Below the pieces are notes generated by a model that saw only the letters and a program-made list of their open reading frames with translations, searched no databases and was not told the DNA's origin. Shown here piece after piece: positions 16,724-36,621 of a stretch of 64,000 nt of DNA. A program made the translations under genes and the position numbers. Positions within the stretch are counted from its first letter, which is position 1. The number at the start of each line of letters is the position of its first letter. Source of the stretch: Acidimicrobiia bacterium (GTDB lineage: Bacteria; Actinomycetota; Acidimicrobiia; Acidimicrobiales; Bin134); NCBI GenBank assembly GCA_022826705.1, contig JAJDUJ010000018.1, forward strand, positions 62,001 to 126,000, given 5' to 3'.

Positions 16724-19615
16724 TCAGCCGTCGCTGATGGCGATGGCGCGCTCGTCGGTGCCGAGGTAGCTGGCGATCACGAGGGGGTCGTTGCGGACCT
16801 CGGAGGGGGAGCCCTCAGCAATGACCTTGCCGGCTTCCAGGCAATACACCCGGTCGCTGATGCTCATGATGAGGGGCATGTCGTGCTCGATGATCAGCAT
16901 GGCCGCCCCCAGCTCCCGGCGGATGTTGACGATGAGCGGTCCGAATGCCTCGGTCTCCCGCTGGGCCACCCCAGCCGTGGGCTCATCGAGGCAAAGCACC
17001 CGGGTGCCCAGGGCCAGCAGCCCAGTGATCTCCACGATGCGGCGGGTCCCGGTGGACAAGTCGCTGATATAGGAATCCGCGTAGCGCCCCAACCCCAAGT
17101 AGTCGATGAGCTCGTCGGCCTCGGCCCGCCGCCGCCGCTCCAAGGCAAATGTGTGGGGGAGGTGCAGGGCCGTGCTCAGGAGTGGCGTGCGGCCCCGGGC
17201 TTCCAAGGCCACCTGCACCGTTTCTCGAACCGTCAGCTCCGGGAACAGCGACGCGGTTTGGAAGGTGCGTCCCAACCCGGCTCGAGCCCGACGGGAAGCA
17301 GAAAGCCGGGTGATGTCGGTGCCGAGCAGTTCCACTCGGCCGCTGGACGGCACGTAGCCTCCCACCGCATTCATGAACGTGGACTTTCCGGCGCCGTTGG
17401 TGCCGATGAGGCCCACGATCTCGTCGGGATGGACCACCACGGTGGCCTCCGAAACCGCATTCACGCCGCCGAACCGCACACTGATGTCGTGCCCGGCCAG
17501 CATGGGATCGGTGGCTGGCCGGGGATCGTCAACCCGGGTCAGGCTGGTGGGAGCGGCTTGGATGGTCTTGCCGCCGGGATCGGGTCCGAGTCGTCGCTCG
17601 GCTAGGCCGATGAGGGCGTTTCGTGCGCTGTAGCCGATCTGGATGAGCCCGCCCGGAAAGTACATCAGCACCAGCAGGAGCCCGATGCTGGAAGAGAACA
17701 GTGCAACGGTTTCCGCATTGTTGAACAGATTCGGGAGGCCGTAGACCCAAATCGCCCCCAGCACCGCGCCGACCGACGAGCCGAGACCCCCGATCACCAC
17801 CATGCCCACAAGCTGCAATGAGTCCTCCACCTGGAAGAACCGCTCGCTGATCGGGACGTTCTGCACCAGGCCGGCCAGCATTGCTCCGCCCAATCCGGCG
17901 ATGCCCCCGGCTAAAGCGAACGAAGACAGCTTGGAGCGCACCGGCCCAATCGTGTAGCCCGAGGCGGAGTCGGCGTTGTCGCGCACTGCGATGATGGTGC
18001 GGCCAACACCTGATCGACGGAGTCGGCTGACAATGATCACCGCAATCAGCAACAAGGCCAGACACACGTAGTAGTAGGTCTTCTGCGACTTGAGGTCGAG
18101 GCCGAACAGCTCGCCCCGGCGGAACGACACCGACGAGGTGTTGCCCCCGGTGAAGAACGGCCTCCGATAGAGGTACTGCTGGGCGGCCAGCGCGAACACA
18201 AAGGTGGTAACCGCCAGATAGAGGCCGCGAACTCGAAGTGATCCGACCCCGATCACGGCCGCCACCAGCGCAGAGAACAGCGCGGTCACCGGAATGGCCA
18301 CCATGAACGGGATGCCGCCGGTCTCAAATTGGACGTCGAAGAAGTCGTACGACAACGCGTCGCCGGGCAAGAACCCGGTTCCCACGGTGAAGTCCATGGA
18401 CAGCCCCCGTTTGAGGCTCGCGGCGAATAGCGCCCCCATGCCGGCGAAGGTCATTTGGGCCAGGGAGAGCTGGCCGGCCCAGCCCGTGATGATGGTGACC
18501 GACAGCCCGCACACCGCAAAGCACAGCACGGTGGCGTACAGCAGCTGGCGGGACGGCAGGTCGGCAATACCGGGGAGCTGAACCAGCACGATGCCGAGCA
18601 CCGCAAGCGCCCCCAAAGCGATTTTGGACAGGTGTCGCAGCCACCACACCTGGCGCAGTCGCTCAGGAATGGCGCGCACCTTGGGTGCGAATGAGAACAC
18701 CCCGGTCTCGCCCTGGCTGCGGCTTTGGAAATACACAGCCACCAGCACTGCCAAGAAGATGACGAAGTCTATGAGTCCGGTTTCGGTAAAGAAGTTGAAC
18801 CGGAACAGGGCGTCGAGAAAACCGATCAACATCCCGGCCACCATGGCCCGCGGAAAGGAGACCATCGAGGCCAGCACGGCAGCCACCATGGCCTTGCCCA
18901 GCGTCTGTGGTCCCAGGTTGGCCAAGCCGGCTATCTGTCCGGTTGACCCGGAGAGCATGATCATCGACAGCGAGGCCAACAGCCCGGCCATCACCCATAC
19001 GAAGGTGGACACCGTCTTGGGATTGATCCCCGACAGCCGAGAGAGGTCGGGGTTGTTGGCCGACGCGGATACCGACTTGCCGAATGAGGTTCGGTTCATC
19101 AACCAGCCCAATAGCAGGGCCAAAACCGGCACCGCGATGAGAATGATGAGCTGGGGACCGCGTACCCGGATTTCGGTAAACCAAACGTCTTCCCAGACTC
19201 TACCGACCACCACCGGATACTTCTGGCCGGCGGCCTCGATGTCGGGAAGCTGGGAGATCACCAGCTGGGCCAGCTGGGCGATACCGACCGTGGCCACCAG
19301 CACAATCACCCGGGGAGAGTTGAACAGCCGGCGGATCACCGTCAGCTCCACTGCGGCGGCGAACAAGACCCCCAGCGCCAGCGATAGCGCGAGCGCCAGC
19401 CAGAACCCCCAGCCGTAGTTCAGCACCAGCAGCGCCATCATCGAAGCGGAGATGATGCCCATGTTGCCCACCGCGAAGTTGATTACCCGGGTGGACCGGT
19501 AGATCAACACGATCCCCAAGGCAACCAGCCCGGTCACCAGGCCGTTGACTACCCCGTTGAAGGCCAACTGCTGGGTGATCCAGGTCCCGACCACAGAGGC
19601 GGAGGCGATTTCCAT
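16724..19615 (-). CDS. LivH-LivM-LivG fused branched-chain-type ABC transporter, set 1
   Basis: A 963-residue triple fusion. About 1-310 is a LivH-type permease (GLVALGIVLIYRS, INFAVGNMG). About 345-665 is LivM (TIITGWAGQLSLAQMTFAGMG and a LGGAMLAGL segment). About 705-963 is LivG: Walker A GTNGAGKST, Q-loop LGRTFQTASLF, signature STGTRRIVEI and Walker B VLCLDEPTAGVAQRE. Normally these are three genes. Such transporters take up amino acids, amides or other small acids with a periplasmic binding protein. Its ATG overlaps the stop of the MFS-LivF gene (TGATG), so translation is coupled. A second copy is at 41254-44124. No binding protein is fused or adjacent; the one at 25220 is the nearest. 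Confidence 0.92.
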   Translation of the reverse strand: MEIASASVVGTWITQQLAFNGVVNGLVTGLVALGIVLIYRSTRVINFAVGNMGIISASMMALLVLNYGWGFWLALALSLALGVLFAAAVELTVIRRLFNSPRVIVLVATVGIAQLAQLVISQLPDIEAAGQKYPVVVGRVWEDVWFTEIRVRGPQLIILIAVPVLALLLGWLMNRTSFGKSVSASANNPDLSRLSGINPKTVSTFVWVMAGLLASLSMIMLSGSTGQIAGLANLGPQTLGKAMVAAVLASMVSFPRAMVAGMLIGFLDALFRFNFFTETGLIDFVIFLAVLVAVYFQSRSQGETGVFSFAPKVRAIPERLRQVWWLRHLSKIALGALAVLGIVLVQLPGIADLPSRQLLYATVLCFAVCGLSVTIITGWAGQLSLAQMTFAGMGALFAASLKRGLSMDFTVGTGFLPGDALSYDFFDVQFETGGIPFMVAIPVTALFSALVAAVIGVGSLRVRGLYLAVTTFVFALAAQQYLYRRPFFTGGNTSSVSFRRGELFGLDLKSQKTYYYVCLALLLIAVIIVSRLRRSGVGRTIIAVRDNADSASGYTIGPVRSKLSSFALAGGIAGLGGAMLAGLVQNVPISERFFQVEDSLQLVGMVVIGGLGSSVGAVLGAIWVYGLPNLFNNAETVALFSSSIGLLLVLMYFPGGLIQIGYSARNALIGLAERRLGPDPGGKTIQAAPTSLTRVDDPRPATDPMLAGHDISVRFGGVNAVSEATVVVHPDEIVGLIGTNGAGKSTFMNAVGGYVPSSGRVELLGTDITRLSASRRARAGLGRTFQTASLFPELTVRETVQVALEARGRTPLLSTALHLPHTFALERRRRAEADELIDYLGLGRYADSYISDLSTGTRRIVEITGLLALGTRVLCLDEPTAGVAQRETEAFGPLIVNIRRELGAAMLIIEHDMPLIMSISDRVYCLEAGKVIAEGSPSEVRNDPLVIASYLGTDERAIAISDG

Positions 19616-21852
19616 CAGCCGCCCTCGGTGCCCAGGAAAACCGCTCTAGCCAGATCGTCTCGTTCGGCTAGCTCCTGGGCCGGGCCCTCAAAGCGCACCT
19701 GGCCCTTCTCCAGGAATACGACCCGGTCGGAGATGGCCAGCGCCACGTTCAACGACTGCTCCACGATGATCATGGTCTGGCCCTGGTCCTTGAGCTCCTC
19801 GATGGTCTCCAGTAGCGACTGCACCACAACCGGGGCAAGACCCAGCGACAACTCGTCGATCATCAGCACCTCGGGCTCGTGCAGCATCACCCGGGCCAGC
19901 GCCAGCATCTGCTGCTGGCCGCCCGATAGGTTGCCCGCCCGCTCTTTAGGCCGATGGGCCAGGTCGGGGAACATCTCAAACACCTTCTCGATGCGACGGT
20001 CCCGGTCGCTGGGATCCCTGCGATAGGCGTAAGCCCCCATGAGCAAGTTGTCGCGGATCGACAGGTCGCTCCACACTCCGGCTCCGCCGGGCAGCATGTG
20101 CAGCCCCATGGCCGCCCGCTGCTCAGGAGTGGCGAAGGTAACGGTCTGGCCGTGCAGACGCACCACTCCTCGCTCTGGGGTCACTAGGCCGGTGATCACC
20201 TTGAGCGCGGTGGACTTCCCCGCGCCGTTGGTGCCCAATAGGGCCAACGTCTCGTGCTTGCGTACTTCAAACCCGAGGTCGAACAGCACCTGCACTTGCC
20301 CGTAGCTGAAATCGACATCGGTCACCTGGATAGCTGGGATGTCGTCAGGGTCGGTCTCGGCTTGGCGGCGCTCCTCGTTCTGTTCTTCCCGCAGCTCGCT
20401 GACTACCAACGAGAGGTCGCGGCGCAGCCGGTTGGCCCCTCGTAGCACGAAGTAGGCCCCGATCGGCATGGCTGTGGCGGTGATGATGGTGATGGCGGTT
20501 TGCTCGCCTAGCTCATTTTGGAGGAAGCCGGCGATGATGCTGCCTCCCACACCGCCGACCATGACCATGAAGAACGTCAGAAACGCAGTGCCCATGCCCC
20601 GCAGCCGGTAGGGGAACACCGCTTGGATGGCGGGCTGCACCATGGCGAAAGCTCCGCCCAAGAAGGTGGAGTTGATGGCGGACAGAATCATGAACAAAGC
20701 GAGGTTGGGCATGGCGTATTGGATAGGAACCAGCACGCCGATGGGCAGGAGGAGGATGCCGATGAGCCGGATGGCCCGGTCGGGGTCCTTGCGAAACGTG
20801 GCGTCGAACCGGCGTCCGACGAACGGCAAGAACATGATCAGCCCAATGCCAGCGGGGGCCACCGCCAAGCCGCGCTCCAAGGCGTCGAGGCCGAACTCCT
20901 CTTCCAAGAAGAACGACTGGATCGAGCCGGCCGGGAAGAGGGCGAATCCCATGGCCGCAAAGGCAATGGTCATGTTGCGGATGGTGTCGATGTTCCAGAT
21001 GCGGGTGAAGGCGGCCTCCACCGAGATGGGCATCTTGTTGTCCTGCTTGAGCCCGGCACCCAGAACGTGCTTCTGCTCCCACTGGCCCCGGGGCGGCTCC
21101 CGCAGGAAGAAGGCCAAGAACGCCAACGCCGCGGTGGGCAGCCCGAGCAGGTAGAACGCCCACCGCCAGCCGTCGTCGCCGCCGATCCACACCGCGATGC
21201 CCCCGGCCAGGATCGGGCTGATGGCGGAGAACACCCGGCCCACCCCGGCGTTGGTGGCGTACATGCGGCCCCGGGTCTGAAGCGGGTAGGTGTCGGCCAG
21301 CATGCTGGGATGCACGGTGATGGTGTTGGCCTTGGACATGCCGGCGAAGAACCGCATGAAGAAAAACATCAGGGCATTCACCGCCGCCCCCGACAGGGCG
21401 CTGAACGCGGCGAAGGCCCCGCTGGCGATGCCCACGATGGGACCGCGGCGGAAGCGGTCGGCCAGCCACCCCATCGGGCCGGCACCCAGCACAAAGAACA
21501 TGAGCGAGGCGGTGCTGATGGCGGTGATGGCCCCGTCGCTCACCCCGAAGCTCTCGCCGATGTCGGGCCCCAAGATGGCCACCGCACTGTTCTCCAGTTC
21601 GTCGAGGCTGTTCAGCGCCAAAAGCACGACGAAGGTCTGGAATCCGCCTTTGCGCAGGCCCTCCTTGAGGGTGGTCTGCTCGCCGCCCACACCGGGCAGC
21701 AAATCGTCGGGGAACAAGACGTCGGCTTTCTGGGCATCGCGCCGGGCAGCCTCGCCCTCGAGCACCGTTGTCGCCAGAGCGTCTATCGACTCGCCCTGGG
21801 CATGTTCCTCGGCCAACTGTCCCCCCGAATTGAGCAGGCTTAGATGGCCCAT
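19615..21852 (-). CDS. MFS permease fused to a LivF-type ABC ATPase, set 1
   Basis: A 745-residue hybrid. After a hydrophilic N-terminus, residues about 70-475 are a 12-helix MFS-like permease: motif A GWLADRFRR (128-136), FFMRFFAGMSKAN, and a central REPPRGQWEQ loop. A charged stretch (about 478-503) leads to a complete LivF ATPase: Walker A GTNGAGKST (540-548), signature NLSGGQQQM, Walker B VLMIDELSLGLAP and a H-loop-like IIVEQSLN. LivF normally pairs with LivG; here its partner is the LivHMG protein encoded next with a TGATG overlap. So one complex may contain ABC permease and MFS domains (inference). The 44124-46361 protein has the same plan and length. Substrate unknown. Confidence 0.9.
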   Translation of the reverse strand: MGHLSLLNSGGQLAEEHAQGESIDALATTVLEGEAARRDAQKADVLFPDDLLPGVGGEQTTLKEGLRKGGFQTFVVLLALNSLDELENSAVAILGPDIGESFGVSDGAITAISTASLMFFVLGAGPMGWLADRFRRGPIVGIASGAFAAFSALSGAAVNALMFFFMRFFAGMSKANTITVHPSMLADTYPLQTRGRMYATNAGVGRVFSAISPILAGGIAVWIGGDDGWRWAFYLLGLPTAALAFLAFFLREPPRGQWEQKHVLGAGLKQDNKMPISVEAAFTRIWNIDTIRNMTIAFAAMGFALFPAGSIQSFFLEEEFGLDALERGLAVAPAGIGLIMFLPFVGRRFDATFRKDPDRAIRLIGILLLPIGVLVPIQYAMPNLALFMILSAINSTFLGGAFAMVQPAIQAVFPYRLRGMGTAFLTFFMVMVGGVGGSIIAGFLQNELGEQTAITIITATAMPIGAYFVLRGANRLRRDLSLVVSELREEQNEERRQAETDPDDIPAIQVTDVDFSYGQVQVLFDLGFEVRKHETLALLGTNGAGKSTALKVITGLVTPERGVVRLHGQTVTFATPEQRAAMGLHMLPGGAGVWSDLSIRDNLLMGAYAYRRDPSDRDRRIEKVFEMFPDLAHRPKERAGNLSGGQQQMLALARVMLHEPEVLMIDELSLGLAPVVVQSLLETIEELKDQGQTMIIVEQSLNVALAISDRVVFLEKGQVRFEGPAQELAERDDLARAVFLGTEGG

Positions 21853-21904
21853 GAGACTAGCGTGACCAGATCAAGCCGATGCCAGAGCCAAGCCGAGGGA
21901 TTTG

Positions 21905-23479
21905 ATGAGGGCACCATCCAACGTTGCGGTAGTTCTGCTGGATTCGCTGAACCGGCACATGCTGGGGTGCTACGGGGGCACCGAGTTTGAGACGCCGAAC
22001 TTTGACCGGTTCGCGGCTGAGCGGGCCACCCGGTTCACCCGCCATGTGACCGGGTCGCTGCCGTGCATGCCGGCCCGCCATGACATTTTGTGCGGGGCGT
22101 TGGACTTTCTGTGGAAGCCGTGGGGGTCGATCGAGCTGTGGGAGGAGCCCATCACCCGGGTGCTGCGCCACCAAGGCGTGACCACCGCGCTGGTCACCGA
22201 TCATCCCCACCTGTTTGAGACCGGCGGGGAGAACTACCACACCGACTTCCACTGCTGGGACTACCTCCGAGGCCATACCACTGACCCGTGGCGCACCTAC
22301 TACGACCCCACCTGGGTGGGGGCTCCGGCCATGCCGGCCAAAAAGGGCGGCTGGTGGTGGACCAAGACATGGGGCATGGAGGAGATGGATCGGGGCTACG
22401 ACCGGGCCCGCACCTTCTTCCGGGCCGAGGAGGACTATCCCGGGCCGATGACTATGAGCGCGGCGGCCCGGTTCTTGGCTGAGGCCGCCCCGCACCACGA
22501 CCGGTGGTTCTTGTTCGTGGACGAGTTTGACCCCCACGAGCCGTTCGACACGCCCGCGCCGTGGGCCGGTCGCTACCACGATGAGGTGTGGGACGACGAG
22601 TGGATCATCTGGCCCCCCTACGCCGACGGGGCCATCAGCGTGGGAAACCTGTCCGAGCGGGAAGCTCGCCACGTGCGGGGCAACTACGGGGCCAAGCTGT
22701 CGATGATCGACCACTGGTTCGGTCAGATCCTCGATCGATTCGACGAGCAGAACCTGTGGGACGACACCGCTCTGATCGTCTGTACCGACCACGGCCACTA
22801 TCTGGGCGAGGAGCGGGAGGGCCGTGACGTCTGGGGCAAGCCCGGGGTGCCTCAATACGAGCCGATGGGCCACACGCCGCTGTTGATGTCGTGGCCCGGC
22901 AAACCGGGCGGGGGAACTTGCGAGGCGCTGACCACCAACGTGGACATCTTCGCCACCGTGGCCGACGTGTTTGACGCCGAGGTGAAGCAGACCACCCACG
23001 GCCGCTCCATGGCCCCGCTGGTTACCGGCGAGGCCAACTCCATCAGGGAATGGGCGTTGGGAGGCGTCTACGGCGGCTGGGTGCAGGTGACCGACGGCCA
23101 GCACAAGTACGCCCGGGGAGCCGAGGGCGAGAACTTCCCAATCTCCATGTGGTCCAACCGATGGTCCACCGTGCCGTTCGGCGAGATGGGCTTTCCCGGC
23201 CTCCCGGTTCCCGACCACCGGGCCTGGCTCGACACGATGCCAGGCTCGGAGGTGCCGGTGATCCGCCAGCCCTACCAGCCGGGCGACACCCTCCCGCTAT
23301 GGGTGACGGTGAACAACTGCAACGACCGCCATTTCCTGTTCGACCTCGACATCGACCCCGATGAGCAGGAGAACCGGAGCAGCGAATCGGGAGACCGGGA
23401 GATGGTCGAACTGCTCCATACTGCGCTCAGCGAGTTGCAAGCCCCCGACGACCAATTCACCCGGCTGGGGCTGAGCTAG
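21905..23479 (+). CDS. Sulfatase (tandem copy 1)
   Basis: A 524-residue alkaline-phosphatase-superfamily sulfatase. CMPAR (Cys54) matches the CxPxR code in which a formylglycine-generating enzyme converts Cys to the catalytic aldehyde; LLDS at 11-14 and the later VCTDHGHYLGE give metal ligands. The ATG at 21905 follows GAGGG. It hydrolyses sulfate or related esters; no signal peptide is seen, so it probably acts in the cytoplasm. It is divergent from the MFS-LivF gene (52-base gap). The next gene is a near-copy with about nine in ten residues alike by eye, so this is a recent duplication. Substrate unknown, possibly something imported by the neighbouring transporter. Confidence 0.93.
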   Translation: MRAPSNVAVVLLDSLNRHMLGCYGGTEFETPNFDRFAAERATRFTRHVTGSLPCMPARHDILCGALDFLWKPWGSIELWEEPITRVLRHQGVTTALVTDHPHLFETGGENYHTDFHCWDYLRGHTTDPWRTYYDPTWVGAPAMPAKKGGWWWTKTWGMEEMDRGYDRARTFFRAEEDYPGPMTMSAAARFLAEAAPHHDRWFLFVDEFDPHEPFDTPAPWAGRYHDEVWDDEWIIWPPYADGAISVGNLSEREARHVRGNYGAKLSMIDHWFGQILDRFDEQNLWDDTALIVCTDHGHYLGEEREGRDVWGKPGVPQYEPMGHTPLLMSWPGKPGGGTCEALTTNVDIFATVADVFDAEVKQTTHGRSMAPLVTGEANSIREWALGGVYGGWVQVTDGQHKYARGAEGENFPISMWSNRWSTVPFGEMGFPGLPVPDHRAWLDTMPGSEVPVIRQPYQPGDTLPLWVTVNNCNDRHFLFDLDIDPDEQENRSSESGDREMVELLHTALSELQAPDDQFTRLGLS

Positions 23480-23601
23480 TCGGCCAGGGCTAACGGGACC
23501 CGCCAACTCGTCGAGGTCGTTCGGCGTCAGCGGTCGGCGCGCCCTTGCCCGTGCAGGGTAGTTTGAGTGGCTGCATAGTAGGGGAAGAGCAAAGGGACAC
23601 C

Positions 23602-25179
23602 ATGGGCACACCCTCCAATGTGGCGGTCATACTGCTGGATTCGCTGAACAGGCACATGCTGGGGAGCTACGGCGGCACCGAATTCGAAACGCCGAATCTG
23701 GACCGATTCGCGGCTGAGCAGGCCACCCGGTTCACCCGCCACGTGACAGGGTCGCTTCCTTGTATGCCGGCCCGCCACGACATCTTGTGCGGGGCGCTGG
23801 ACTTTCTGTGGAAGCCGTGGGGCTCGATCGAGCTGTGGGAGGAGCCCATCACCCGAGTGCTGCGCCACCAAGGCGTGACCACCGCGCTGGTTACCGATCA
23901 CCCCCACCTTTTCGAGACCGGCGGCGAGAACTACCACACCGACTTCCACTGCTGGGACTACCTGCGGGGCCACGAGGGCGATCCGTGGCGCACCTACTAC
24001 GACCCCTCTTGGGCTGGCTCACCGACGATGCCGGCCCGAAAGGGCGGCTGGTGGTGGTCGAAGATGTGGGGGCTCGAGGAGATGGATCGGGCCTACGACC
24101 GCTCCCGCACGTTCTTCCGGGCCGAGGAGGATTACCCCGGACCGATGACCATGAGCTCGGCCGCCCGGTTCTTGGCTGAGGACACGCCGCACCACGACCG
24201 ATGGTTCATGTTTGTGGATGAGTTCGATCCCCACGAGCCGTTCGACACCCCGGCTCCGTGGGCCGGCCGCTATCACGACGAGCCGTGGGGGAACGAGGAG
24301 TGGATCATCTGGCCCCCTTACATCGACGGGGGCATCGCCTCGGGCCACTTCTCGGAGAAAGAAGGTCGCCACGTGCGGGCCAACTACGGGGCCAAGCTGT
24401 CGATGATCGACCATTGGTTCGGCCAGATCCTCAATCGTTTCGACGAACAGAATCTGTGGGAAGACACTGCGCTGATCGTGTGTACCGACCACGGCCACTA
24501 CTTGGGCGACGAGCGGGAGGGCCGCGACATCTGGGGCAAGCCGGGCGTGCCTCAATACGAGCCGCTGGGCCACACGCCGCTGTTGATTTCGTGGCCCGGC
24601 AAACCCGGCGGGGGAACTTGTGAGGCGCTGACTACCAACGTGGACATCTTCGCCACGGTGGCCGATGTCTTCGATGCCGAGGTGAAGCAGACCACCCACG
24701 GCCGCTCTATGGCCCCGCTGCTGAGCGGTGAGGCCGACTCCATCCGAGAGTGGGCGCTGGGTGGGGTGTTCGGCGGCTGGGTGCAGGTGACCGATGGCCA
24801 GCACAAGTACGCCCGGGGAGCCGAGGGCGATAACTTCCCAATCTCCATGTGGTCCAACCGGTGGTCCACCATGCCGTTCGGCGACATCGGCATGCCCGGC
24901 CTGCCCCCGCCCGACCAGCGGGCCTGGCTCGACAAGATGCCGGGCTCAGAGGTGCCGGTGATCCGCCAGCCCTACCAGCCGGGCGACACGCTGCCGCTGT
25001 GGGTGGCGGTGAATGCCTGTAATGATCGCCACTTCCTGTTCGACCTCGACGTCGACCCCAGTGAACAGGAAAACCGCAGCAGCGAGTCGTCTGCTACAGA
25101 GATGGTTGATCTGCTCCACACCGCGCTCAACGATGTGGACGCGCCCGATGAGCAATACGCTCGTTTGGGGCTCAAATGA
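23602..25179 (+). CDS. Sulfatase (tandem copy 2)
   Basis: A 525-residue paralogue of the sulfatase just upstream, with the same CMPAR formylglycine site (Cys54), the same DHGHYLGDEREG metal region and the same HGRSMAPLL tail. The ATG at 23602 (MGTPSNVAV), preceded by AAAGGG, is chosen over an earlier in-frame start. Differences from copy 1 are spread along the protein (for instance the DEPWGNEEW insertion of one residue and changed YIDGGIASGHFSEK stretch), suggesting altered substrate preference more than decay. It is followed after 40 bases by the binding-protein gene, so the two sulfatases and the binding protein may form one rightward unit. Confidence 0.93.
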   Translation: MGTPSNVAVILLDSLNRHMLGSYGGTEFETPNLDRFAAEQATRFTRHVTGSLPCMPARHDILCGALDFLWKPWGSIELWEEPITRVLRHQGVTTALVTDHPHLFETGGENYHTDFHCWDYLRGHEGDPWRTYYDPSWAGSPTMPARKGGWWWSKMWGLEEMDRAYDRSRTFFRAEEDYPGPMTMSSAARFLAEDTPHHDRWFMFVDEFDPHEPFDTPAPWAGRYHDEPWGNEEWIIWPPYIDGGIASGHFSEKEGRHVRANYGAKLSMIDHWFGQILNRFDEQNLWEDTALIVCTDHGHYLGDEREGRDIWGKPGVPQYEPLGHTPLLISWPGKPGGGTCEALTTNVDIFATVADVFDAEVKQTTHGRSMAPLLSGEADSIREWALGGVFGGWVQVTDGQHKYARGAEGDNFPISMWSNRWSTMPFGDIGMPGLPPPDQRAWLDKMPGSEVPVIRQPYQPGDTLPLWVAVNACNDRHFLFDLDVDPSEQENRSSESSATEMVDLLHTALNDVDAPDEQYARLGLK

Positions 25180-26722: not shown

Positions 26723-26744
26723 CCGAAACAAAGGAGTACCCGCC

Positions 26745-27764
26745 ATGACTACGATCACCATCCTGGGCGACGAGGTGGCCACTGCCACCGGCGAATGGGT
26801 GGATGGCCGCCCGCTGATCGAGCCCGATGCCCTCTCCGCCGCCGTCGGCTGGTCGCTGAAACCGGAGGGGCTTTGCCGCGGTGATCAGTGTGTGCTGGTG
26901 GGAGACGGCTCGGCGATCCGGGTGGGCGACAAGCTCGATCTGGCCGCGGTGGCCAATGCAGTGGACCAGCCCACCGTGGTAGACCCCGGCGCCAGCGTTG
27001 TGGTGTTGGGCCAGCCCAACGCCACTCGCCAGGCGGCTCTGCGAGATCGCCAGGCGCCCGACTTCACCCTTGTCGATCTCGACGGCGCAGAGAGAAGCCT
27101 TTCGGACTATGCCGGCAAAAAGCGGCTCTTGGTCGCCTTCTCCAACTGGTGAGGATGCGCCTTTGACCTGCCCGGGTGGCAGGAATTGCACGATGAGATG
27201 GCCGACGACGGCTTCATGGTGATTGCAGTGGCCATCGACGAGGCCGTCGACGATGTGCGGGTGCTGGCCGATGGCATCACCTACCCGGTGCTCATGGACC
27301 CCGACCACATCCTGACCGAGACGTACGCCATCAGCAACGTGCCCGCGGTGGTGTGGATCGACGAGCAGGGACGAATCGCCCGCCCCAACGCCAGCGAATT
27401 CGGAAGCGATATGTTCAGCGAGTTCACCGGTCGAACATGTCAAGGGCACTTCGACCAGATTCGTGCCTGGGTCCACGACGGTGTTGTACCCGATGACGCC
27501 GACAGCGAGATCGCCGATCTCAGCGACGATGAGGTAGCTGCCCGCCTTCACTTCCGACTGGCCGCCCATCTGCGGCGGGCCGGAAACGAGGAAGGGGCCG
27601 CCCGCCACTTCGACGCCGCCGCCAAGCTCGCGCCTTTGGACTTCACCGTTGTCCGAGCGGCGATGCCGCTGCGGGGTGAGAGTCCCTTCGGCGAAGAGTT
27701 CTTCAAACTGCTCGAGGAGTATCAGGCGGCTGGGAGCCCGTTCCACGGCATCACGCCCGCCTGA
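26745..27764 (+). CDS. Thioredoxin/peroxiredoxin-fold protein with in-frame UGA: probable selenoprotein
   Basis: Read through the TGA at 27150-27152, this is one 339-residue frame. Residues 1-95 form an N-terminal domain (VGWSLKPEGLCRGDQC). A redoxin domain follows (APDFTLVDLDG) whose active site reads NW-U-GC-AFDLPGWQ, with the UGA as residue 136 and Cys138 after it. Relatives have Cys-Gly-Cys here, so U136 stands for the first redox Cys. Downstream are VIAVAIDE and VPAVVWIDEQG, standard thioredoxin-fold strands with the cis-Pro, then a TPR-like tail (ARLHFRLAAHLRRAG). A hairpin with apical loop about 20 bases after the UGA fits a bacterial SECIS. The gene follows the lipoprotein gene by 22 bases. 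A thiol-disulfide or peroxide-reducing role is expected. Confidence 0.85.
27153..27190 (+). promoter_or_regulatory. SECIS-like element after the UGA codon
   Basis: CCTGCC (27167-27172) pairs perfectly with GGCAGG (27178-27183) around loop CGGGT. The apical loop starts about 20 bases after the UGA, inside the spacing typical for bacterial SECIS elements bound by SelB, and has a G at its second position followed by GU. An outer TGC/GCA pairing (27156-27158 with 27188-27190) may extend it. The hairpin lies wholly within coding sequence. Confidence 0.7.
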
Positions 27765-34174: not shown

Positions 34175-35098
34175 CTAGAGCACTCCGAGGCGCTCGCCGA
34201 TGTCGCGCAGGATCTCTCGGTCGCTGTCGGGGCGGGTGGGGGCGCCGTGGGGGACGGCGTCACAGCTGGCCCAACCCCGCATCTGCAAGAACATGGCCGC
34301 GCTGTGGCGATAGGCCGGTACGGGTGGGCGGAACGTGAAATGGCCCAGGTATTGGAGAACGTCATTGAGCTGGTAGAAGCCGGGGTCGCCCTCGGCCCAC
34401 AGGCGATCGCGCTTGGCGAATCTGTCGGGGGCGAACGTGGACAGACCCAGCAGGTAGTCGGAGCCGTACATCACCATGTCGATGGCCAGGTCGTTGCCAG
34501 TGAGCACCATGAAGTCGGGGCGCACTTCGTTTCGCAGCGCCAGCCGGTCCCACTCCAGCTCCCGGTTGAGTGACGAGTGCTTGGCCCCGATGCACTGGGG
34601 GATTTCCAGCAGCCCCCGGTAGGTGTCCAGTGACACGATGCGGCCGTAGGGCACGAACATGGGGCCGAGCTCGAACCCGATGAACCTTTCCAGGTGGGAA
34701 GCGATCTGGCCGTGGGCGTCGAGCCAGGCAGCATCGCCGTGGTCGTTCAATCCGTGCGACGGGAAGATCACCGGTAGGCCGCCCCGTTCGGTGATCTCTT
34801 CGGCGGCTCGCCGGTAGGCGTCAAGGTCGAATGTCGCCCCTGGCTCGTCGGCCACGAACGCGCCGGCCACGAAATCGCTGCCGGCGACTTCCTCCGCTCT
34901 GTCGAGTACCCGCTTCCGGTTGACAGGTTCAAGCAGCTGGACGTAGCCGGTATCCATATTCACGGCTGGGGTGAGTCCCGCTTCCTGGGTGCGGGCGATA
35001 TGGGCTTCCAGCGAAGCCCAGTCCACTGCGGCCGAGTCGAGATGGGGCAGCAGAATGGCCGACATCCCGGTGATGGCCCGACCGGGCAAAACCTGCAC
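34175..35098 (-). CDS. Dihydrodipicolinate synthase / N-acetylneuraminate lyase family aldolase
   Basis: A 307-residue TIM-barrel class I aldolase-like protein. The Schiff-base Lys is visible in CIGAKHSS; FGLNDHGD-like and GNDLAIDMVMYGSDYLLG segments fit the fold. The catalytic Tyr region is diverged, so lysine biosynthesis is unlikely; sugar-acid or keto-acid aldol cleavage is more plausible in this catabolic operon. It starts with GTG at 35098, overlapping the sulfatase stop (TAGTG), and ends 3 bases before the OYE-like start, so the three genes are co-transcribed. Confidence 0.83.
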   Translation of the reverse strand: MQVLPGRAITGMSAILLPHLDSAAVDWASLEAHIARTQEAGLTPAVNMDTGYVQLLEPVNRKRVLDRAEEVAGSDFVAGAFVADEPGATFDLDAYRRAAEEITERGGLPVIFPSHGLNDHGDAAWLDAHGQIASHLERFIGFELGPMFVPYGRIVSLDTYRGLLEIPQCIGAKHSSLNRELEWDRLALRNEVRPDFMVLTGNDLAIDMVMYGSDYLLGLSTFAPDRFAKRDRLWAEGDPGFYQLNDVLQYLGHFTFRPPVPAYRHSAAMFLQMRGWASCDAVPHGAPTRPDSDREILRDIGERLGVL

Positions 35099-36621
35099 TA
35101 GTTGTCGACTCCTAGGCGCTCCAGAACGTCATTGGGGATCCCAGACAGGCCGGTGGATGTGTTGTCCCCTGGATGGCGCTCTCGCAGAATTGCCGCCGCA
35201 TCGGATCGACCGGTGGCTTCGAGGCGCTCCAGATATTCGGGCAGGTGCCCCTTGCAGTGGAAGGGGCCGCCTTCGGCCAGCACAATCTTGAGCGGATCGA
35301 CGGGGGAGTAGCTGCGGGTCATCTGGTCGTCAGTCCACGACAGCAATTGATCTCGGCCGTCGGCCATCACCGAGGGGGCCTGGTCGGCCAGGTCGGTGGT
35401 CTCGTGGGGGTCGGCGGCGATGTCGAACAGCATTTCCTCGTTCCAGGCCGCGTGGTAGCCGTCGTGCCAGGTCCGCAGATAGAGGTGGTCGCCCCAGCGG
35501 ACCCCCCGCTGCACCGACCACGCCCCCTGCGAGAGCACTAGGTAGTCCCGTCCACCGTGGTTGCCGGTGCGGACTTCCTCGGCCACCGATCGGCCGTCCC
35601 AGAGGAAGGGGATGTCGATGCCGGCCAGGTCGACCACGGTGGCCCCGATGTCGAGGTGGTAGAGCAGTCCCTCGTGGACTTGGGGTTCCAGCCCCGGCCA
35701 GCGCAGCACCGAGGGGATGTGGCAGGTGGCCTCATCGGCCGCCTGATGGTCGGCGTACACGCCCAACTCGCCGAACGCCTCGCCGTGGTCGGAGGAGACC
35801 AGGATGGCGGTGTCGTCCAACACGCCCTGGTCGGCAAGCGTGTTGACCAGCGTTCCCACCGCATCGTCGGCGTAGCGGATCCCGGTGTCGTAGCCGTCGA
35901 AGGTCTGCTTCACCTCGTCCATGTTCGACAGGTTCCAGGGGTGGCGGGGCGGGGGAGGGCCCCATTCATCGGGTTTGAACCCCCAGGGCTCCTGGGCGGA
36001 ATGCGGCCCGGCCAGCGGCCAGTTGCGGGCCCGCACCTCCTCGGTATGCCATGCCGGGGCCGGATCGCCCTCGAACGGATTTCCGTACTCTTCGGGGATG
36101 TTGTATGGGGTGTGGGGATCCCACAGGTGTACGTGGAGGAACCAGTCTTCCTGCGCGGAGTTGTCGTTGAGCCAACGCAGCGCTCCGGGCAGCACCTGGT
36201 CGGCCCGCTCGCCGCCGAAGCCCCGCATCAGGTTCATCGACTCCATGAAGCCACTGTTCCACCAGGTTGCCGAGTGGCGGAACGGAAAGCTGGAGATAGA
36301 AGCGGTGTGGTACCCCGACCAATAGAAGCGAGAGGCCCAGGAGTTGGCTGCGATCGAGGAGAAGAAGCTCCGCTCCGCCCCCTGAGGCCGCAGGTCGGCG
36401 GCCATCCCCCCGTGGTTGGCCACCCCGTTGCGGATCCCGAACATACCGGTGATCAAGGCGGTGCGGCTCGGCAGGCAGGGCACGTCCGACGCATAGACGT
36501 TGGAAAACCGCACCCCCTCGGCGGCCAGCGCGTCGATGTTCGGGGTGGTGTTGCGGTGATACCCCGCACACCCCAGGTGATCAGCCCGAAGGGTGTCGAT
36601 GTCGATGTAGAGGATTCGCAT
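35098..36621 (-). CDS. Sulfatase
   Basis: A 507-residue sulfatase. It opens MRILYIDIDTLRADHLGC, with the Asp pair for the metal, and has CLPSR (Cys49) as the formylglycine site and ILVSSDHGEAFGE as the second metal site. No signal peptide is seen. It is unlike the pair at 21.9-25.2 kb and closer to heparan/iduronate-type sulfatases. It lies 40 bases downstream of another sulfatase on the same strand, and is coupled to the DHDPS-like gene by a 1-base overlap. The operon suggests stepwise desulfation and carbon cleavage of a sulfated sugar or sugar acid (inference). Confidence 0.93.
   Translation of the reverse strand: MRILYIDIDTLRADHLGCAGYHRNTTPNIDALAAEGVRFSNVYASDVPCLPSRTALITGMFGIRNGVANHGGMAADLRPQGAERSFFSSIAANSWASRFYWSGYHTASISSFPFRHSATWWNSGFMESMNLMRGFGGERADQVLPGALRWLNDNSAQEDWFLHVHLWDPHTPYNIPEEYGNPFEGDPAPAWHTEEVRARNWPLAGPHSAQEPWGFKPDEWGPPPPRHPWNLSNMDEVKQTFDGYDTGIRYADDAVGTLVNTLADQGVLDDTAILVSSDHGEAFGELGVYADHQAADEATCHIPSVLRWPGLEPQVHEGLLYHLDIGATVVDLAGIDIPFLWDGRSVAEEVRTGNHGGRDYLVLSQGAWSVQRGVRWGDHLYLRTWHDGYHAAWNEEMLFDIAADPHETTDLADQAPSVMADGRDQLLSWTDDQMTRSYSPVDPLKIVLAEGGPFHCKGHLPEYLERLEATGRSDAAAILRERHPGDNTSTGLSGIPNDVLERLGVDN

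Follow-up and report, generated by a model that had tools for sequence, protein, structure and literature searches.

A probable selenocysteine codon in the active site of a ResA/TlpA-like redoxin from Acidimicrobiia and its covarying SECIS hairpin

Results

The redoxin gene and its surroundings

As shown in Table 1, the window, a stretch of 64,000 nucleotides, holds a redoxin gene whose single frame of 339 residues is obtained once the TGA at codon 136 is translated. This is the only in-frame TGA, it stands in the context FSNW-U-GCAFDLPGWQ, and the frame is otherwise open from the ATG to the terminator. The two halves form one AhpC-TSA/Redoxin domain: the Pfam AhpC-TSA match spans the TGA (residues 102-212, E 5.6e-16), and the Redoxin model matches residues 103-213. 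The continuity of the frame across the TGA, as read in the first-pass annotation, is thus borne out, as is the placement of the UGA at the position of the first active-site cysteine, since cysteine homologues align there and the second cysteine (C138) is kept. Of the proposed motif NW-U-GC, the UGC residues stand, but the spacing is U-x-C, with G137 as the one residue between, and not U-x-x-C. TGA also terminates the redoxin gene itself and several neighbouring genes, so UGA has not been reassigned and the code is unchanged, in line with the earlier remark that TGA is a normal stop in the window.

The gene neighbourhood gave no functional clue to the redoxin. The genes next to it, for the upstream protein and for an AMP-ligase downstream, are conserved in the genus and not beyond it; the label of ABC substrate-binding protein for the former was given by its look only, and it has no Pfam match. 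Elsewhere in the window, one frame of 745 residues (19615-21852, minus strand) combines an MFS transporter domain with an ABC ATPase domain and looks like an unusual fusion. There are also two similar sulfatase genes in tandem (21902-23479 and 23545-25179, plus strand) and a third one at 35098-36621 (minus strand).

Table 1. Features of the redoxin gene (coordinates of the window)
Feature	Coordinates	Strand	Basis
Predicted selenoprotein gene, UGC-type ResA/TlpA-like redoxin, 339 residues through one Sec codon	26745..27764	+	stop TGA 27762-27764
Shine-Dalgarno-like AAGGAG, 8 bases 5' of the ATG	26731..26736	+	sequence
N-terminal alpha/beta domain, residues 1-91, with the invariant Cys pair C44-x4-C49	26745..27017	+	alignment, model
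Thioredoxin-fold domain, residues 95-245, ResA/TlpA-like	27027..27479	+	Pfam, structure comparison
TGA predicted to be read as selenocysteine, residue 136; active site U136-G137-C138	27150..27152	+	frame, conservation, Cys homologues
Predicted SECIS hairpin, 6-bp stem (CCTGCC 27167-27172 with GGCAGG 27178-27183), apical loop CGGGT (27173-27177)	27167..27183	+	folding, covariation of 27173/27176, constraints of PMC13188914
C-terminal helical TPR-like tail, residues 250-339	27492..27761	+	TPR_2 E 8.7e-4 (below cut-off), predicted structure

Fold and family of the redoxin

An AlphaFold2 model built on 18 aligned members has a mean pLDDT of 92.8, and U/C136, G137, C138, C44 and C49 are invariant among these members. 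Residues 95-245 superimpose on 3gl3 (Z 15.9, rmsd 2.0, 138 aligned) and on ResA 1st9 (Z 15.0, rmsd 2.1, 134 aligned), and over residues 95-248 ResA/TlpA chains score Z 12-16. Modelled by itself, the N-terminal domain reaches a confident pLDDT of 93.4; a fold search with it found no clear match (best Z 5.3, Foldseek E >= 0.5), and the redoxin's own copy of the domain has no Pfam match. A copper-amine-oxidase-N-like identity, weighed as a candidate for this domain, received no confirmation. The tail is helical in the model, and its TPR_2 match is weak.

It is known that the thiol-disulfide oxidoreductases ResA, TlpA and CcmG use a C-x-x-C site and act outside the cytoplasm. The redoxin shares with them a thioredoxin fold of the ResA/TlpA type, but it has U-x-C where they would have C-x-x-C or U-x-x-C, two extra domains, and no signal peptide evident by eye. 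Since no signal peptide is evident, the protein is placed, with modest confidence, in the cytoplasm.

The closest NCBIfam model is NF041054, 'ResA-like WAxxUGC motif-containing protein' (WAxxUGC_long), which covers residues 25-219. The N-terminal and redoxin domains align with it and the Sec lies in U-G-C in both, while the C-terminal part of the redoxin differs. The score of 192.6 bits is below the curated cut-off of 300, and in place of WAxxUGC there is FSNWUGC, in which UGC is kept and the W and the A are not. Four relatives from the same class with an in-frame TGA (L051-L054) pass the model at 397-580 bits, whereas those on the redoxin's side of the tree (L042, L044, L046, L048, L049 and L050) score 191-240 bits. 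On these scores, the redoxin is assigned to a sister subfamily of NF041054.

UGC redoxin selenoproteins as such are already known (PMC2398784, PMC13188914; also NF041054). A 'Prx-like (UGC-containing)' family, pfam00578, was reported with 46 Sec sequences and 855 Cys homologues from the Global Ocean Sampling (PMC2398784), and a 'UGC-containing TlpA disulfide reductase family protein' appears in a catalogue of 2026 (PMC13188914). The redoxin has the pfam00578-type domain with Sec in UGC by which the former is defined there, and many Cys homologues are likewise a shared trait; the likeness to published entries such as MDE0950781.1 is drawn from their descriptions. In the portions searched, neither paper names Acidimicrobiia or actinobacteria for the UGC family. 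The literature searched contained no report of selenoproteins in Acidimicrobiia and no match to 'WAxxUGC'.

Is the product a disulfide reductase or a peroxidase? Given selenocysteine, a peroxiredoxin-like selenoperoxidase is a possible product, if the less probable one: AhpC-TSA and Redoxin are the top Pfam matches, and the Global Ocean Sampling authors chose the name Prx-like for their family (PMC2398784). However, the nearest folds and the specific NCBIfam matches are thiol-disulfide oxidoreductases of the ResA/TlpA type, and by these I lean towards a disulfide reductase.

Conservation of the TGA and its exchange with cysteine codons

Full-length copies from 17 genomes of the same genus, the source genome included, all keep the TGA. 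The 16 other copies are 80-95% identical to that of the source genome, and dN/dS downstream of the TGA is 0.04-0.16 within the genus, indicating purifying selection. Conservation together with this selection argues that the TGA is not there by chance. A match was found in 36 of 60 surveyed relatives, and copies from many further families of the order keep the TGA as well. Sampling across the class gave a match in 96 of 296 genomes, and most copies contain exactly one TGA; many of these orthologues come from draft genomes. A UGC redoxin with a separate N-terminal domain and tail had been considered uncommon at first. That view did not hold, since about one third of the sampled class genomes carry a relative, and such a domain architecture is therefore not rare. 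Judged from these sequences, the subfamily proves to be widespread in Acidimicrobiia, and no earlier report of it was found in the literature searched.

Across the class, the codon for residue 136 is TGA in 102 distinct copies and a Cys codon in 83 (69 TGC and 14 TGT); the Cys copies, retrieved by a search pattern that demands CGC, serve as a cysteine control, not as a census of Sec and Cys frequencies. The Cys homologues are continuous through this site, and the exchange of Sec and Cys that the first-pass annotation had wished to see in an alignment is evident in many of them. At least 11 Sec/Cys exchanges were counted on a FastTree phylogeny with the motif masked, at least seven of them forced by well-supported branches; these counts do not rest on a full likelihood search and give no direction of exchange.

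These data bear on the reading of the TGA as a true stop, by which the locus would be a pseudogene or would yield two proteins through termination and re-initiation. TGA does terminate genes elsewhere in the window, the redoxin gene among them, and a TTG at 27186 could start a downstream frame. Against this, the TGA is kept in 17 genomes of the genus and in 102 copies, the downstream part is under purifying selection, the Cys homologues run through without interruption, and the split would fall inside the thioredoxin fold at the very residue of the active site. A true stop is consequently very improbable.

The named homologues are mostly from Acidimicrobiales or Acidimicrobiaceae MAGs. A copy from the same order (L047 of genome G044) is almost identical to that in a record of Candidatus Microthrix parvicella (L090). 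By these homologues, the source is probably an uncultured bacterium of the Acidimicrobiales. Three MAG records titled Bifidobacterium breve (L071, L093 and L096) have copies that group with the acidimicrobial ones, and their titles look wrong. Two or more TGA-bearing UGC redoxin paralogues were found in G014, G018, G019, G025, G058 and other genomes, in some of them from both branches of the tree, while the source genome has one copy. One TGA copy (L201, contig C189 of G265) has U-H-C replacing U-G-C, in WASW-U-HCRSDLPVWQ.

The selenocysteine machinery and other in-frame TGAs

All four components that were to be sought, selA, selB, selD and tRNA-Sec, were found in the source genome (3.45 Mb, 31 contigs, 95.4% complete). 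The selB gene (301.5 bits against a cut-off of 242) adjoins selA (401.8 bits against 267.9), and a tRNA-SeC with the anticodon TCA lies on the same contig. The selD gene (355 bits; contig C10:53799-54743, minus strand) has an in-frame TGA of its own (GAG-U-AGK), followed by the hairpin CTCGGA-CCG-TCCGAG, without the G[G/U] apex seen in the redoxin genes. A frame resembling the formate dehydrogenase alpha gene (fdhA), on contig C30 at about 110559 (L225:1807), also has an in-frame TGA, in SCNRT-U-HAPS, where formate dehydrogenase has its Sec; this frame is probably a further selenoprotein gene in the source genome. Its TGA is followed by a hairpin-like GTCGTCGGTCTGGCGAC, of which the CGGTCTGG apex resembles that of the redoxin genes.

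A TGA copy is present in 30 of the 60 relatives, every one of which has tRNA-Sec or SelA, and 24 of which have both; gaps are to be expected in drafts. The Cys-only genomes, three of three, have neither tRNA-Sec nor SelA (Fisher p 1.8e-4 against the TGA-bearing genomes). The machinery is present with no counted redoxin copy in 17 of the 27 remaining relatives, so it is independent of the redoxin gene.

Read-through of UGA is known in bacteria in general, and the codon might be read as another amino acid, by a near-cognate tRNA or through a code change. This is no more credible than a true stop, for the genome has the full Sec machinery, residue 136 aligns with Cys only, selD and the fdhA-like gene also have in-frame TGAs, and the SECIS hairpin covaries as described below.

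The hairpin downstream of the TGA

A perfect 6-bp hairpin with the loop CGGGT and its apex about 20 bases downstream of the UGA had been noticed from the outset, and it was recovered exactly so (Table 1). Its energy is -9.3 kcal/mol alone and -10.4 kcal/mol with flanks, and the loop begins 20 nucleotides after the UGA. In PMC13188914, a bacterial SECIS is constrained to a loop of 3-9 nt, a stem of 4-16 bp, a G within the first two loop positions, a distance of 16-37 nt from the UGA to the loop and an MFE <= -7.5. With its 5-nt loop, 6 bp, G at the second position, 20 nt and -9.3 kcal/mol, the hairpin falls within every one of these limits.

Is the hairpin maintained at the RNA level? Covariation was analyzed among the copies sharing the peptide L-P-x-W-Q (99 TGA and 44 Cys). 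The stem consists of the Leu and Gln codons, and it is fully complementary in 97 of 99 TGA copies versus 29 of 44 Cys copies (p 2.5e-7). Two loop sites are synonymous, namely the third codon positions of Pro (27173) and of the Gly or Val that follows (27176); here the Watson-Crick partners match in 98 of 99 TGA copies, as opposed to 18 of 44 among the Cys copies (p 1e-15). Four apices account for nearly all TGA copies: CCCGGGTGG, CCAGGTTGG, CCGGTCTGG and CCCGTGTGG. Because the copies are related, a second count was made on the tree. Of the independent comparisons in the Gly class, 8 of 8 show a joint change of the two bases (sign test p 0.008), as do 4 of 4 in the Val class, too few to count alone. 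In the Cys copies, the same tree-based comparison found no link between changes at 27173 and 27176. Covariation in the TGA copies but not in the Cys copies shows an RNA-level constraint tied to the TGA. Published constraints and compensatory synonymous changes together identify the hairpin, at the level of sequence, as a bacterial SECIS. An error for TGC or TGT is the least credible reading of all, even for a 31-contig assembly, because more than 100 copies, drawn from many assemblies, have the same TGA at the corresponding codon, and the hairpin is maintained where that codon is TGA and relaxed where it encodes Cys.

Either 27173 and 27176 may form a true pair, so that the loop shrinks to the two bases G[G/U], or SelB may accept only a few loop sequences. 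I tentatively suggest, without giving it even odds, that this lineage has a narrow shared SECIS apex: G[G/U], a covarying closing pair (27173-27176), then an unpaired U. Such an apex would be tighter than the general bacterial SECIS model and might amount to a lineage-specific SelB recognition code.

Discussion

The best explanation, to which I assign a probability of about 97%, is that 26745-27764 encodes a selenoprotein in which Sec would be inserted at codon 136 through SelB and the hairpin, and whose product would be an oxidoreductase of the ResA/TlpA fold. Conservation, the alignment with Cys, covariation and the Sec machinery led to the rejection of a pseudogene, a sequencing error and a code change. 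The parts, their conservation and the covariation are observed; from them I infer Sec incorporation itself, and it is almost certain that the in-frame TGA specifies selenocysteine in a redox enzyme of the thioredoxin-like kind.

SelA and SelD would make Sec-tRNA(Sec), and SelB would bind the hairpin just 3' of the UGA and deliver Sec at codon 136. As suggested by the fold and the motif, the product most likely works in the cytoplasm as a selenol thiol-disulfide reductase or peroxidase whose catalytic cycle involves Sec136 and Cys138: the selenolate of Sec136 would attack a disulfide or a peroxide, Cys138 would resolve the selenenylsulfide, and a cellular thiol system would then reduce the Sec136-Cys138 selenenylsulfide. 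The N-terminal domain with C44 and C49 and the helical tail might perhaps serve electron relay or partner binding.

Under standard annotation, this redoxin would be split at the active site into two proteins, and it reaches the cut-off of none of the current NCBIfam models. For a bacterial SECIS, in silico evidence as clean as this covariation of synonymous sites is unusual. Since Sec and Cys have been exchanged at least 11 times in the family, the costs and benefits of the two residues can be weighed against each other within one enzyme.
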